Shown: one piece after another, positions 1 through 20,239 of the stretch | Position numbering within the stretch: the stretch's first letter is position 1 | Layout: every line of letters starts with the position of its first letter | Assembly (NCBI RefSeq): GCF_001428305.1 | Contig: NZ_LMRZ01000005.1 | Coordinates: 1-64,000, forward strand | Direction of reading: 5' to 3' | DNA length: 64,000 bases | DNA from: Janibacter sp. Soil728 | GTDB lineage: Bacteria; Actinomycetota; Actinomycetes; Actinomycetales; Dermatophilaceae | The notes under the pieces: generated by a model | The model's database searches: none | Told to the model about the DNA's origin: nothing | What the model saw: the letters and a program-made list of their open reading frames with translations, nothing else | Made by a program: the position numbers and the translations under genes

Positions 1-46
1 AAACCAGCCGGACAACGCGACCATGTCCGAATAGACACACACCCCT

Positions 47-92
47 GACTGTCCGACATGTCCCTTCACGACTGTCCGACATGTCCCTTCAC
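47..92. repeat. Two perfect tandem copies of a 23-bp unit
   Basis: Positions 47-69 and 70-92 are identical; each contains TGTCCGACATGTCCCTTCAC after GAC. The unit carries a small palindrome TGTCCGACA. Diverged copies of the same unit lie in the opposite orientation at about 18700-18752. No ORF overlaps it. It could be the remnant of a transposon end or a protein-binding site; the sequence alone does not decide. Confidence 0.85.
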
Positions 93-103
93 AGGACACC
101 GGT

Positions 104-127
104 GAATCGTCGGCGCGTTTACCTCCA
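104..127. repeat. Partial copy of the GACGATTCGTC-type palindromic repeat
   Basis: The stretch GAATCGTCGGCGCGTTTACC followed by TCCA matches one half of the quasi-palindromic repeat family found at 15.6-19.0 kb (core GACGAWTCGTC, arm GTTTACCTCCA). The left arm is missing. It sits just after the 23-bp tandem repeat, the same association seen near 18.7 kb. The rest of the gene-free first 166 bases holds only a CGAAGGGGG motif at about 152-160. Confidence 0.6.
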
Positions 128-166
128 ATCGGGCGATGGGAGGTGAGTGGGCGAAGGGGGAGTCGC

Positions 167-15645: not shown

Positions 15646-15704
15646 CCGCCGGGTGGAGGTAAACACGCTGACGATTCGTCGGCGGGTTGGCATCCACCCG
15701 GCGG
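15646..15704. repeat. 59-bp quasi-palindromic repeat, copy with intact arms
   Basis: Ends are perfect inverted 12-mers, CCGCCGGGTGGA and TCCACCCGGCGG. The inside is asymmetric: GGTAAACACGCTGACGATTC then GTCGGCGGGTTGGCA, centred on GACGATTCGTC. It is about 90% identical to the copy at 16725-16783, with similarity continuing some 20 bp past the right end (CGTCGG..CCAGGCTGG). The rest of the 15620-15857 gap shows only a ribosome site before 15858. Confidence 0.88.
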
Positions 15705-15857
15705 CGTCGGCCCGCCAGGCTGGCTGGGTGGGTTGGTCCACCGGCCTCGGGAGGGCGAGTCATTCCGCCGGTGTTGGGTGGGTGTTCACCGGCGCGGGCC
15801 GGGATCGACACCGGGCCGCGGCACCGTGGCGCTCACCCGACCCAGGAGATCGCCACC

Positions 15858-16703
15858 ATGGCCCGTCATGTCCGTCACCGTCCCCTCGCCACCGCTGCTG
15901 TCGCTGCCCTGGCGCTGACCCTGCCCGTCGGCGCGGCCAGCGCCGCACCCGTCGAGCTGGGCACGCCGTTGCCGGCGGCCCACGCCCACAACGACTACGA
16001 GCACGACCGGCCGCTGCTCGACGCGCTGGAGCACGGCTTCACGTCGGTCGAGGCAGACGTGTGGCTCGTCGACGGCGAGCTGCGCGTCGCCCATGACGAG
16101 TGGGAGGTCGCCGACGCGCCCACCCTCGAGGAGGCCTACCTCGACCCGCTCTCCGAGATCGCCACGCGCGGTGGGCAGCAGATCTACCCCGGGTACACCG
16201 GTGACTTCCAGCTGCTCATCGACATCAAGAGCGACGGGCCGACCACGTGGAAGGCCATCGAGGAGGAGCTCGAGGAGCACGAGCAGGTCTTCACGCGCGT
16301 CCACAAGGGCAAGGTCAAGGACCGCGCGGTCGAGGCTGTCATCAGCGGCAACCGTCCTCGCGCGCAGATGGAGGCGGCGACGACCCGCTACTCCTTCTAC
16401 GACGGACGCTCGAGCGACCTCGGCTCCGGGACCGACGCTGACCTCATGCCCCTCGTCAGCGAGAACTGGACGAAGCTCTTCACCTGGCAGGGCATCGGCG
16501 AGATGCCTGCGGCTGAGCGGGACAAGCTCCACTCCTACGTCGAGCAGGCCCACGCGGACGGGTACCGAGTGAGGTTCTGGGCGACCAACGACATCGCTGG
16601 TCCCGCCCGTGAGGACCTCTGGCGCGAGCTGCGTGACGCCGGCGTCGACCACATCAACACCGACGACCTCGACGGGCTGCAGGAGTTCCTCACCGAGGAG
16701 TGA
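15858..16703 (+). CDS. Secreted PI-PLC/glycerophosphodiesterase-like protein
   Basis: A 281-residue exported protein. The first 30 residues form a Sec signal (RHRPLATAAVAALALTLPVG, cleavage near ASAAP). The mature N-terminus AHAHNDYEHDRPLLDALEHG followed by VEADVWLVDGELRVAHD is the TIM-barrel start shared with glycerophosphodiester phosphodiesterases and the AIM6-like group; HND and EAD supply the presumed acid-base and metal residues, and the barrel ends with VRFWATND and DHINTDDL. ATG 15858 follows AGGAG by 9 bases. It is flanked on both sides by the 59-bp repeats. Phospholipid-derived diesters are likely substrates, by family only. Confidence 0.75.
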   Translation: MARHVRHRPLATAAVAALALTLPVGAASAAPVELGTPLPAAHAHNDYEHDRPLLDALEHGFTSVEADVWLVDGELRVAHDEWEVADAPTLEEAYLDPLSEIATRGGQQIYPGYTGDFQLLIDIKSDGPTTWKAIEEELEEHEQVFTRVHKGKVKDRAVEAVISGNRPRAQMEAATTRYSFYDGRSSDLGSGTDADLMPLVSENWTKLFTWQGIGEMPAAERDKLHSYVEQAHADGYRVRFWATNDIAGPAREDLWRELRDAGVDHINTDDLDGLQEFLTEE

Positions 16704-16724
16704 GTGCGGCGCCAGACCCTCCCG

Positions 16725-16783
16725 CCGCCGGGTGGAGGTGGACACGCTGACGATTCGTCGGCGGGTTGGCATCCACCCGGCGG
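16725..16783. repeat. 59-bp quasi-palindromic repeat, second intact copy
   Basis: Same 12-bp inverted ends (CCGCCGGGTGGA / TCCACCCGGCGG) and GACGATTCGTC core as at 15646. The left inner arm reads GGTGGACACGC in place of GGTAAACACGC. It starts 21 bases after one stop codon and ends 23 bases before the next start codon, filling almost the whole intergenic space. Confidence 0.88.
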
Positions 16784-16806
16784 CGTCGGCTTGGCAGGCT
16801 GGGGCC

Positions 16807-17445
16807 ATGGACGATGCACGGCTCATCTCCCGGACGGCTGCCAACCGACGACTCTTCGCCGATGTCCTCGACGAGCTCGGTGAGGCCCACGCCCACGACG
16901 CCACCCTGTGCGCGGGCTGGGACGTGCGCACCCTCGCCGGTCACCAGCTGCAGCCGGTACACGTGCCGTCGTGGCGCTTCCTGCTCACTGCTGCCCGGCA
17001 GCGATCGATGGCTCGCGCGTGTGATGTGCATGCGGTCCGGCTGGGGGACCGGCCGCTGGCCGAGATCGCAGCGGAGCTGCGGGAGCGCGCGACTGATGGG
17101 TCGAGACCCTGGTTCATCGGCCGTGCCGGGCCCTTCACGGACTCGTGCATCCACCTGCGTGACCTCGCCGAACCGCAGGGCCTGGACGTCACTGTGCCGA
17201 TCGAGGACTGGCGGACGGCCCTTGAGATCATCGTGTCGCCGCGTGGCCGTGCGTCCTTCCTCCCTGTAGAGGGCCTGCTCGACGGCCTGCGCTGGGCGGC
17301 CACGGACGTGGCGTGGGTCCATGGCGAAGGGAGCGCCGTCACCGGCAGCGCCGAAGCCCTCGCCATGGTCATGTCGGGACGATCCGGCTACCTCGACCGC
17401 ATCCGTGGGGAGGGCCTCGCGGTGCTTCGAGCTCGGCTGGAGTGA
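16807..17445 (+). CDS. Maleylpyruvate isomerase-family protein (mycothiol-dependent DinB-like fold)
   Basis: A 212-residue protein resembling the MDMPI N-terminal four-helix bundle: ATLCAGWDVRTLAGHQL carries the Trp-Asp-His segment that normally supplies a zinc-binding histidine, and a C-terminal DLAEPQGLDVTVP / EGSAVTGSAEALAMVMSGR matches the mycothiol-dependent enzyme tail. Such proteins are numerous in actinobacteria and mostly uncharacterised. The start ATG 16807 lies only 23 bases after a palindromic repeat, so that repeat falls in its leader or promoter. The exact reaction is not determinable. Confidence 0.72.
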   Translation: MDDARLISRTAANRRLFADVLDELGEAHAHDATLCAGWDVRTLAGHQLQPVHVPSWRFLLTAARQRSMARACDVHAVRLGDRPLAEIAAELRERATDGSRPWFIGRAGPFTDSCIHLRDLAEPQGLDVTVPIEDWRTALEIIVSPRGRASFLPVEGLLDGLRWAATDVAWVHGEGSAVTGSAEALAMVMSGRSGYLDRIRGEGLAVLRARLE

Positions 17446-17460
17446 GCCACCACCTCCCGT

Positions 17461-17505
17461 TGGAGGTGAATGCGCTGACGAGTCGTCCGCGAGTCGGCAT
17501 CCACC
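17461..17505. repeat. Diverged 45-bp copy of the quasi-palindromic repeat
   Basis: TGGAGGTGAATGCGCTGACG, then AGTCGTCCGCG and TCGGCATCCACC; core GACGAGTCGTC with one change from the consensus. It lies in the gap between the convergent gene ends at 17445 and 17527. Confidence 0.75.
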
Positions 17506-17526
17506 CGCGGCCGTCCGCGCGCAGGA

Positions 17527-18459
17527 TCACCCGGCGAGGCGAAGACCGGACAGTCGGGCGTGGGCGGCCACGACCTGGCCCATGAACTGCTCCTCGGCGA
17601 TGCGCAGCCCGAGCACGTCGATGCGCAGGACGGTGTCGCCGTGGAGGGTCACGGAGTTCTGCCGGAGGTTGTCATCGGTGACGGCGAGTCCCCACCGGTG
17701 GCCGGCGCCGTCGATCTCGACGACCAGCCCGCACTCCCACCTCACGTCGAGGTAGACACGGCCTCTCTGTCCGTTGCGCACGACCTGACGGGCCGGCTCC
17801 GGGAGTCGGTACCGACGGCACAGCGCCGCGAAGTCCAGCTCGCCCAATGCCTGGACGCCGAGGGCGACGTCCGGGGCCACACCTGCGATCAGTGCTCGGC
17901 GTGTCCGGCCCCGTACGAGGCTCGTGGCCTCGAGGAGCTGCGCGCCGGTGCACAGCCGCTGCTGCACCGGCATGATGAGGACGAGCGCCGCTTGTCGGTC
18001 GGACACGGCCCAGTGAGCGGCGCGCACGGCAGCCGGTGCCGGCCTGACGACCGGGAGCTCACCGGGAGCGAGGAGCGACGGCGGGCGGGAGCGCACCTTG
18101 TGCACGACGACGCCGTCGACCGGGGTGATGCTGGCGGTGTGGGGGACGGAGACGTGCACCAAGTCGTCGTTCCACCGCTCGAGACCGGCATGCTGCAGCG
18201 CAGTGGGGCCATCCAGTGCCGCGATGCCCGAGCCGACCTCCCAGACCGCGCGCCATCGACGGGCCAGATCGCCCAGGTCACCGGTGTGGGTCGCGATGGT
18301 CCACCGCCCGTGCGCGACCCACCTGCGATGACGCAGCTGGAGGCGCACCTCGTCACGGTCGATCCCCAGGGCGCGCAGATGTGTGCGGCTGATGACGCCG
18401 CCGTATGGGGCAGCGGCCGCCGTCGCTGTGTCGTGGATCCCGAGGATGCGTGCGTCCAT
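17527..18459 (-). CDS. DUF559-type nuclease-like protein with AbiEi-like N-terminal winged helix
   Basis: A 310-residue protein. The N-terminal 50 residues (GVISRTHLRALGIDRDEVRL, RRWVAHGRW) resemble the winged-helix part of AbiEi-type antitoxin proteins. The C-terminal 110 residues match the Vsr-like PD-(D/E)XK fold of DUF559: GELDF, then VYLDVRW and VVEIDGAGH with the acidic metal-binding residues, ending RIDVLGLRI. Such genes are frequent orphan genes in actinobacteria with unknown biology; no toxin partner is next to it. ATG 18459 is preferred because the in-frame extension to 18945 reads through palindromic repeats. It is embedded in the densest cluster of those repeats. Confidence 0.75.
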   Translation of the reverse strand: MDARILGIHDTATAAAAPYGGVISRTHLRALGIDRDEVRLQLRHRRWVAHGRWTIATHTGDLGDLARRWRAVWEVGSGIAALDGPTALQHAGLERWNDDLVHVSVPHTASITPVDGVVVHKVRSRPPSLLAPGELPVVRPAPAAVRAAHWAVSDRQAALVLIMPVQQRLCTGAQLLEATSLVRGRTRRALIAGVAPDVALGVQALGELDFAALCRRYRLPEPARQVVRNGQRGRVYLDVRWECGLVVEIDGAGHRWGLAVTDDNLRQNSVTLHGDTVLRIDVLGLRIAEEQFMGQVVAAHARLSGLRLAG

Positions 18460-18541
18460 GACCCCATCCCAAGGGGACGGAGCGCCGGGAGCGAGGGGCG
18501 CTTGCTGGCTGTGGATGAACCGGCCGGACGTGCCGTGGGTG

Positions 18542-18979
18542 GGGACGAATCGTCCCTGGCGACCGGGGGAGGAGGCGCGGGGATCCCCCCTTCGCCTTGG
18601 GTGGATGTCGACTCGCCGACGATTCGTCCGCGTGTTTACCTCCACCGGGACTTGGTCATCGGGAGTGGATGCCAACTCGCCGACGATTCGTCCGCGTGAT
18701 GTGAAGGGACATGTCTGACAGGTATGTGAAGGGACACCGCTGACAGTCCGGGGATACCCCCTTCGCCTTGGGTGGATGTCGACTTGCGGATGATTCGTCC
18801 GCGCGTTTACCTCCACCGGGGATTTGGGCGCCAGGGGGAGGAGGCGCGGGGATCCCCCCTTCGCCTTGGGTGGATGTCGACTCGCGGACGATTCGTCCGC
18901 GCGTTCACCTCTACCGGGGACTCGGTCATCGGGAGTGGATGCCAACTCGCCGACGATTCGTCCGCGTGTTTACCTCCAC
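18542..18979. repeat. Cluster of quasi-palindromic repeats and a ~130-bp direct duplication
   Basis: This gene-free stretch (18460-19027) is mostly repeat. Copies with core GAYGATTCGTC lie at 18601-18645, 18665-18698 (cut off on the right), 18772-18816, 18870-18914 and 18935-18979, plus a core-only GGGACGAATCGTCCC at 18542-18556. A block of about 130 bp (18567-18697) recurs at 18837-18967 with one indel and a few changes; both blocks begin GAGGAGGCGCGGGGATCCCC and contain two palindromes. The three copies at 18601, 18772 and 18870 are preceded by CCCCCTTCGCCTTGGG. No promoter is evident to me for the flanking minus-strand genes. Confidence 0.88.
18697..18752. repeat. Two diverged copies of the 23-bp unit of 47-92, inverted
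   Basis: Reads GTGAAGGGACATGTCTGACA and then GTGAAGGGACACCGCTGACA with AGTC following, the reverse complement of the tandem unit at 47-92 with a few substitutions. It directly truncates the palindrome at 18665, consistent with an insertion or recombination junction. Confidence 0.75.
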
Positions 18980-19027
18980 CCGGGACTCAGGCGAACTGGC
19001 CACCGGGGAATCGGGCGACCGGAGAAC

Positions 19028-20239
19028 TCAGTCCTTCGAGGTCTCACCCGGCAGCGCGAGCATCTGGTCGAGCGCGACCTTGGCCCAGTGCGCGACCTCG
19101 GGGTCGACGACGATCGGGTTGACCACGCGGCCCTCGACGATCGACTCGAGGGCCCAGACGAGGTGGGGCAGGTCGATCCGGTTCATCGTCGAGCAGTAGC
19201 AGACGTTCTTCTCGAGGAAGCTGATCTCCTGCTCGGGGAACATCTGGCCCAGCCGCTGCACGAGGTTGAGCTCGGTGCCGACGACCCACTTGGTGCCCGG
19301 GGGAGCCGCGGCCACGGTCTTGATGATCTTCTCGGTCGAGCCGACCTCGTCGGCGATCGAGACGACCTCGTTGCGGCACTCCGGGTGCACGATGACGCGC
19401 ACGCCGGGGATCTCCCTCCGCGCCGTCTCCACCGCGTCGACCGAGAAGCGCCCGTGCACCGAGCAGTGCCCGCGCCACAGGATCATCCGGGCGTCGCGGA
19501 TCTGCTGGACCGTCAGCCCGCCCATCGGCTGGTGCGGGTCCCAGACGACGCAGTCCTCGAGGTCACGACCGAGGTCGCGCGCCCAGGTGTTGCGGCCGAG
19601 GTGCTGGTCGGGGAGGAAGAGGACCTTGCCCTCGGACTCCACCCCACCCCGCTCGTCGAAGGCCCAGGTCAGCGCCGTCCTGGCATTCGAGGAGGTGCAG
19701 ATCGTCCCGCCGTGGCGACCGGTGAAGGCCTTGATCGCGGCGGAGGAGTTCATGTACGTCACGGGGACCGTCACGTCGGCGACCCCCGCCTCGACGAGGT
19801 CGTCCCAGCAGTCCTCGACCTGGTGCAGCGCGGCCATGTCGGCCATCGAGCAGCCGGCCGCGAGGTCGGGCAGGACGACGGTCTGCTCGTCGTTGGTCAG
19901 GATGTCGGCCGACTCGGCCATGAAGTGCACACCGCAAAAGACGATGTACGGCGCATCGGGACGCGCCGCGGCCTCCTTGGCCAGCTTGAAGGAGTCGCCG
20001 GTGACATCGGCGAACTCGATGACCTCGTCGCGCTGGTAGTGGTGCCCGAGGACGAAGACCGTGTCGCCGAGCGTCTCCTTGGCCGCGCGGGCCCGGGCGA
20101 CGAGGCCCGGGTCGGACGGGGCCGGCAGGTCACCCGGACACTCCACCCCGCGTTCGGAGTGCGGGTCGTTGCCCTGTCCGAGGACGAGCAGGGAGAGGGG
20201 CTTCGGCGTTGACTGCGTCGTGGCGCTCACGGGAGGCAT
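19028..20239 (-). CDS. nadA: Quinolinate synthase A
   Basis: Condenses iminoaspartate with dihydroxyacetone phosphate to quinolinate in de novo NAD synthesis, using a 4Fe-4S cluster. The 403 residues include VLGHHYQRDEVIEFAD, FCGVHFMAESAD, PDLAAGCSMAD, TYMNSSAAIKA and HPECRNEV, with a late cysteine in CYCSTMNRIDLPHLVWALE; the conserved cysteines are present. The start is ATG 20239 (GTG 20230 is an alternative); a much longer reading to 21295 is antisense to the kinase gene and rejected. No nadB or nadC lies in the window. It is divergent from the glycerate kinase gene with 40 bp between start codons. Confidence 0.93.
   Translation of the reverse strand: MPPVSATTQSTPKPLSLLVLGQGNDPHSERGVECPGDLPAPSDPGLVARARAAKETLGDTVFVLGHHYQRDEVIEFADVTGDSFKLAKEAAARPDAPYIVFCGVHFMAESADILTNDEQTVVLPDLAAGCSMADMAALHQVEDCWDDLVEAGVADVTVPVTYMNSSAAIKAFTGRHGGTICTSSNARTALTWAFDERGGVESEGKVLFLPDQHLGRNTWARDLGRDLEDCVVWDPHQPMGGLTVQQIRDARMILWRGHCSVHGRFSVDAVETARREIPGVRVIVHPECRNEVVSIADEVGSTEKIIKTVAAAPPGTKWVVGTELNLVQRLGQMFPEQEISFLEKNVCYCSTMNRIDLPHLVWALESIVEGRVVNPIVVDPEVAHWAKVALDQMLALPGETSKD

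Follow-up and report, generated by a model that had tools for sequence, protein, structure and literature searches.

In Janibacter sp. Soil728, a gene for a protein with an AbiEi-like DNA-binding module and a probable Vsr-like nuclease, as judged from fold matches, lies between copies of a 49-bp near-palindrome, and relatives of the gene usually lie between palindromes of their own. This bracketing is gene-specific and the private palindromes diverge with the protein; we have very little doubt that gene and palindrome are truly paired. This appears to be a second form of the REP–RAYT partnership, unrelated to the known one, and no report of a nuclease gene paired with palindromes was found in the literature searched. 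On balance we favour the reading that the gene and its palindromes form a REPtron-like selfish unit, which would work by recognition and cutting with an unrelated enzyme.

A 49-bp palindromic repeat family

The window, by which we mean the whole 64,000-nucleotide stretch analysed, contains eight copies of the near-palindrome, one of them cut by an insertion-sequence remnant, and two fragments. The consensus of the 49-bp unit, drawn from 64 copies in several Janibacter genomes, is GGGTGGAGGTnnACnCGCnGACGAnTCGTCCGCGnGTnnACCTCCACCC. With at most one mismatch, the core GACGAWTCGTC occurs at nine sites in the window, compared with 2.19 expected (SD 1.52; 100 shuffles, maximum 8). The features discussed are as follows.

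1..97, strand not assigned: right end of an IS481-type element, with the contig beginning inside the element (same sequence as the L057 right end)
98..129, minus strand: half palindrome copy cut by the IS481-type element (profile search)
15651..15699, plus strand: 49-bp palindrome copy (nhmmer E 3.2e-14)
16730..16778, plus strand: 49-bp palindrome copy (nhmmer E 2.9e-13)
17458..17506, plus strand: 49-bp palindrome copy, 20 bp beyond the stop codon of the partner gene (nhmmer E 1.6e-11)
17527..18459, minus strand: partner gene of the palindromes, for a putative AbiEi-like + DUF559/Vsr-like protein of 310 aa (stop codon at 17527–17529)
18540..18560, strand not assigned: core-only fragment upstream of the partner gene (exact 11-bp core)
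18599..18647, plus strand: 49-bp palindrome copy, about 140 bp upstream of the start codon of the partner gene (nhmmer E 1.4e-14)
18663..18698, plus strand: palindrome copy cut by an insertion-sequence remnant, starting 64 bp after the 18599 copy (profile search)
18697..18752, strand not assigned: IS481-type left-end remnant in the 18663 copy, ends approximate (near-identical to the L057 insertion-sequence left end)
18770..18818, plus strand: 49-bp palindrome copy (nhmmer E 2e-13)
18868..18916, plus strand: 49-bp palindrome copy, forming a 65-bp doublet with the 18933 copy (profile search)
18933..18981, plus strand: 49-bp palindrome copy (nhmmer E 1.9e-14)
19028..20101, minus strand: 3' part of nadA, the portion used as query; neighbour marking the site (nadA search)

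The quasi-palindromic repeat family described in the first-pass annotation is therefore real, although its unit was put there at 45–59 bp. The perfect 12-bp inverted ends reported for the copies given as 15646 and 16725 were confirmed by eye. Of two partial copies proposed, the one at 104 is the half copy at 98–129, while the one at 18542 was rejected as a palindrome copy, having only the 11-bp core and a profile score of about 5 bits, which is not significant. The statement that all copies lie between genes holds by eye for the window, but a crude heuristic places four of the eight inside over-long open reading frames (ORFs).

The genome comprises 3.64 Mb in 10 contigs. When the window and 32 fetched stretches were searched iteratively with a profile, 51 rows were returned. 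These amount to about 49 distinct copies, as one appears twice where contig ends overlap and two others make up a single interrupted copy; a covariance model run on the whole genome gave 106 two-strand matches, or about 53 copies. The claimed clustering around the gene holds in that no other cluster seen is as dense as that of the window, but copies occur at other places too, to a genome total of about 50. With the crude ORF heuristic, applied to 50 of the 51 rows, 20 copies lay between convergent, 14 between tandem and four between divergent ORFs, with 10 inside a heuristic ORF and two at a contig or stretch edge. These locations suit REP-like sites and argue against a regulon.

The element thus occurs, as REPs do, in many copies as short extragenic palindromes, both single and in doublets. 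Among close pairs in the fetched Janibacter stretches, 22 of 31 are spaced 64–66 bp apart, and doublet spacings favour a period of about 10 bp (18 locus-spacings; an equally high value in 2 of 5000 random sets). Base-pair compensation was no higher than in shuffled alignments (78.7% of cells paired versus 80.8%), showing that the dyad is not maintained by compensatory pairs, as expected for a protein site on duplex DNA.

The partner gene and its product

The window protein had no match in Pfam or NCBIfam at E ≤ 1. PF04480 (DUF559) matched 11 of 23 relatives at that threshold, the best at 0.00056, and the gene carries its DUF559 label because of these relatives. An AbiEi-like fold, consisting of a winged helix–turn–helix and the AbiEi C-terminal fold, was found at residues 7–199. 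A Vsr-like fold is faintly suggested for the probable nuclease domain by weak fold matches. Residues D238, E248, H254 and D263 are kept in 58, 59, 59 and 59 of 59 proteins, respectively, and the restriction-enzyme profile mREase_II matches 23 of the 59.

Bracketing is specific to the gene

With the window protein as query, matches were obtained at 28 places in 16 Janibacter genomes. All eight genes of the subfamily (at least 66% identity to the window protein) have palindrome copies on both sides, and in the other seven, as in the window, copies lie just past the stop codon. The truncated subfamily gene L146 has retained two copies on one side. The window palindrome brackets none of the 16 full-length paralogues (47–55% identity; two represent one segmental duplication) and lies beside none of three pieces of one broken gene. 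At the same positions, 11 of the 16 paralogues have clear upstream–downstream pairs of other, private palindromes, with arms such as TTCGAAGAAGGACCGCGACC, GTTGAAATACnCCCCGCG and GGTCGAGGTATCCCCGACCG; in the remaining five, such palindromes are weak or unseen at that threshold.

The first-pass annotation had also asked whether copies cluster near DUF559 homologues. None of the 53 repeat places in the genome lies within 10 kb of any of its eight PF04480 hits, the window gene not being among these hits. Taken alone, this lack of enrichment would have overturned the annotation's proposal. The pairing is gene-specific, not DUF559-wide.

Pairing across genera

A single scan of named genomes yielded 65 named loci, from Intrasporangium, Terrabacter, Phycicoccus, Knoellia, Tetrasphaera, Ornithinimicrobium, Flexivirga, Dermacoccus, Aeromicrobium, Kribbella and others; this set overlaps the 16-genome set in its Janibacter genes, and the two are therefore not independent. 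Good palindromes (at least 17 of 23 pairs) within 350 bp of the gene were present upstream in 43 of the 65 loci, downstream in 42 and on both sides in 31; the rest of the loci, with much coding sequence, had 48 in 469 kb. A looser threshold gave candidates on both sides in 62 loci. The best upstream–downstream identity in these had a median of 0.85, compared with 0.47 between mismatched loci, and 58 of the 62 lay above the 95th percentile of the null. Palindromes on both sides matching at an identity of at least 0.70 were found in 55 of 65 loci and in none of 349 shifted control windows from the same loci, even though both sides had candidates in 222 of these windows, of which 21 were above 0.574. 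Together with the contrast between subfamily and paralogues in Janibacter, these counts support the earlier proposal of a gene for a putative Vsr/PD-(D/E)XK nuclease beside its own repeat family, the arrangement seen in REP/RAYT systems. Protein and palindrome identity are correlated (rho 0.559, 52 loci, 0 of 999 permutations), in part through plain orthology.

An alternative is that the palindromes are operators, with the AbiEi-like module autorepressing its gene through the upstream copy, the scattered copies being a regulon or neutral sites, and the nuclease acting in defence or repair. We consider this unlikely: most loci have a second copy past the stop codon, as the 55 matched pairs show, the centre of the upstream copy lies a median of 130 bp before the start codon in the named loci, and copies in the Soil728 genome avoid promoters, as seen in the ORF contexts above.

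Dispersal, presence and absence

Solo copies exist for all three palindrome families tested. The TTCGAAGAAGG family has matches in 12 of 16 Janibacter genomes; in the genome of the window it occurs at four places and brackets neither of the two genes found there with the window protein. The palindrome of Tetrasphaera australiensis occurs at eight places in its own genome, two of them the gene flanks, and in none of 12 other genomes. Copy numbers of both these families are small.

Counting both strands, Janibacter genomes with an intact subfamily gene have 106, 118, 81, 42, 37, 24, 6 and 6 matches to the window palindrome, and those without one have 25, 23, 11, 4, 1, 0, 0 and 0. Copy number is thus higher with the gene (one-sided Mann–Whitney p 0.005, uncorrected for phylogeny, in genomes that vary in completeness, G015 being at 79%).

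The nadA query matched 15 of 16 Janibacter genomes. At this site the cassette adjoins nadA in six of the 15, a gene remnant with two palindrome copies is present in G013, and eight have no gene. Seven of these eight have no element within 1.5 kb downstream, and G003 has one at about 0.8 kb; in all eight, the junction itself has neither gene nor palindrome. In G006 and G008, a homologue of 66% identity is located away from nadA. These empty sites bear on a further account, in which the palindromes came first, as a target at which a homing-type or site-specific gene lands and which it duplicates, while another agent spreads the palindromes. Since the eight nadA junctions in other Janibacter carry no palindrome, and since palindromes diverge in parallel with the protein and differ between paralogues, we hold this account to be distinctly improbable.

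REP palindromes are common bacterial repeats, and to our knowledge the RAYT family is their only dedicated partner. In another account, the copies would be ordinary REPs that a RAYT moves, or else ordinary terminators, and the DUF559 gene a bystander. Their mostly intergenic positions, often near 3' ends, their palindromic structure, doublets and REP-like character would fit. However, Y1_Tnp (PF01797), the RAYT profile, was detected at E ≤ 0.001 in none of 39 genomes, this one included, whereas 5 of 14 control genomes were positive, and no Rfam family matched in the window at gathering thresholds. The sequence is also almost limited to its genus, unlike conserved terminators: outside Janibacter, matches occurred in 0 of 23 genomes in one search and in 1 of 23 by covariance model, the exception being G016 (six matches), whose homologue carries a different palindrome. 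A bystander gene, finally, does not sit well with private palindromes beside paralogues in many genera, and we give this explanation hardly any credence.

Six of six stretches fetched from G012 align to copy-bearing stretches of the Soil728 genome, and many sites are therefore old; among stretches of more distant Janibacter, 8 of 14 align and 6 do not. Differences at shared sites were also seen. L055 and L119 have one copy versus four, which looks like local tandem duplication; the copy at position 9096 of L045 is absent in G008, where the junction is not clean; and in G011 a MazE-like ORF and, after it, one that is PIN-like by eye lie between two copies, where G000 has a bare doublet. None of these presence/absence differences showed a clean insertion boundary or a new insertion. 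Given the shared sites and no event caught in the act, spread appears to have been old or slow.

A proposed REPtron-like selfish unit

In the reading that we favour, the protein encoded between the copies would recognise the 49-bp palindrome as its cognate site on double-stranded DNA, reading the two half-sites with the AbiEi-type winged-helix module that is fused to the probable Vsr-like (DUF559) nuclease domain. The gene and its bracketing palindromes would form a small selfish unit, analogous to the REPtron (a RAYT gene and its REPs), of which solo copies and 65-bp doublets would be non-autonomous derivatives. In the past, they may have spread when the site was nicked or cut and host repair or copying then took place. 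That the protein binds the palindrome is suggested by the precedent of AbiEi and by the lack of base-pair covariation, while the weak fold matches and conserved acidic residues suggest that it may cut DNA; cutting, in turn, could drive the spread or mobilisation of the palindrome.

REPtrons are described as short extragenic palindromes in singletons, doublets and clusters, with a RAYT gene flanked by its own family; coexisting REP families each have repeat-specific enzyme genes, and sites lie mostly between convergent or unidirectional genes (PMC3733652). The present system shares the singletons, doublets and clusters, the enzyme gene flanked by its own family, the repeat-specific genes and the convergent or unidirectional placement. 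It differs in having an AbiEi-like and probable Vsr-like (DUF559) protein in place of a Y1/HUH tyrosine transposase, in palindrome length (49 bp versus 20–40 in REPs), in a conservation that fits duplex reading and not a hairpin kept by compensation, and in the absence, by eye, of the GTAG or CGTC end tag of REPs. AbiEi binds a pair of 23-bp inverted repeats separated by 3 bp, a 49-bp site of 23-3-23 layout (PMC3985639). Our protein resembles this AbiE type IV toxin–antitoxin component in its fold and in having a 49-bp inverted repeat as the putative DNA site, but it has an additional nuclease-like domain, and two sites bracket its gene, with many more in the genome.

DUF559 genes beyond Actinobacteria

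Using a DUF559 probe, 46 records were obtained from a plasmid collection and 14, picked for variety, were examined. In 8 of the 14 loci, a repeat common to both flanks of the gene scores at least 20, while none of 56 control comparisons exceeded 13. The shared repeats are mostly C-rich hairpins with CCCTCTCCC- or CCCTCCCC-like arms around single-domain DUF559 genes. The other six loci score 9–13, which is not above controls, and some have one-sided hairpins. In E. coli, ycjD has such C-rich motifs downstream only.

Dispersed repeats of similar kind, differing in sequence from the Janibacter palindrome, have been described for which no mover is known. According to PMC3733652, no dedicated transposase belongs to CGTC REPs, and the G/C triplex motif (TMECO/PIT) occurs in more than 260 genomes, with no mobility gene reported beside the sites in E. 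coli (PMC4666352). For such repeats, a tie to DUF559 genes is a lead drawn from the 14 records selected among 46. We put forward, as a tentative idea that we find somewhat less probable than its opposite, that DUF559 (YcjD/Vsr-like) nucleases, whether or not they have an AbiEi reading head, may be a widespread second class of palindrome-keeping selfish enzymes, each gene carrying and dispersing a private palindrome, and the missing partner of orphan repeats (CCCTCTCCC triplex motifs, perhaps CGTC REPs) in Actinomycetota, Pseudomonadota and Deinococcota. A protein without the RAYT fold that usually carries its own palindrome is a concrete candidate partner for both repeat types, and the pairing gives a DUF a testable function. 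It also provides dozens of natural protein–site pairs whose members have diverged in step and which might reveal a recognition code.

An insertion sequence at the palindrome centre

The L057 left flank and the L067 right flank share CGGACGAATCCTCGG, 15 bp that form the dyad centre, and with one copy of CGGACGAATCCTCGG the two flanks sum to one 49-bp element. In G012, both flanks lie close together with no insertion sequence and with more palindrome copies between them. The IS481-type element, which contains a gene for a 397-aa rve-type transposase with a weak IS481 leucine-zipper match, inserts at the palindrome centre. Further REP-targeting insertion sequences are known elsewhere. ISPpu9 is reported to target an extragenic palindrome (REP; PMC8450116), as does the Janibacter element; the latter differs in being of IS481 type, in targeting this 49-bp family and in producing a 15-bp duplication centred on the dyad.

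Insertion into a palindrome copy and a possibly faulty scaffold join

One palindrome copy was found to be split at its dyad centre by an IS481-type element, with a target duplication of 15 bp. The element within a palindrome copy, and a remnant of its left end, were located as follows:

Window 1-129: IS481-type element in palindrome copy
L057:2503-3995 (contig C3 of the same genome): IS481-type element in palindrome copy
L067:3796-3943 (a further fetched stretch): IS481-type element in palindrome copy
Window ~18697-18752: left-end remnant of IS481-type element

On C3, an N and a repeated stretch lie within the element (L057:2630), and the end of C3 repeats the start of contig C5, where the window begins; together these suggest a faulty scaffold join. 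In another Janibacter genome, G012 (L118), the C3 left flank runs on towards the end of contig C7.

Variation at palindrome sites among Janibacter genomes

In G011, two palindrome copies enclose an ORF for a MazE-like antitoxin and a 139-aa ORF, PIN-like when judged by eye (L105:4322-4983). The corresponding site in the window's genome is a palindrome doublet with nothing in between; the two ORFs are possibly cargo. Approximately 6 kb adjoining a palindrome copy in the window's genome (L045:2556-8571) is missing from the corresponding position of G008 (L116).

DUF559 genes outside Janibacter

A single DUF559 gene of Intrasporangiaceae bacterium URHB0013 (L187) has 10 private palindrome copies, five per side, spaced 67-74 bp. 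On a Sphingomonas parapaucimobilis plasmid (L254), the suf operon holds a single-domain DUF559 gene, flanked by hairpins, between sufB and sufC. E. coli ycjD (L259), also a DUF559 gene, has a palindrome with 18-bp arms directly upstream and CCCTCTCCC-type motifs directly downstream; a 1-kb ycjD query was at least 80% covered in 3361 of 5426 E. coli genomes.
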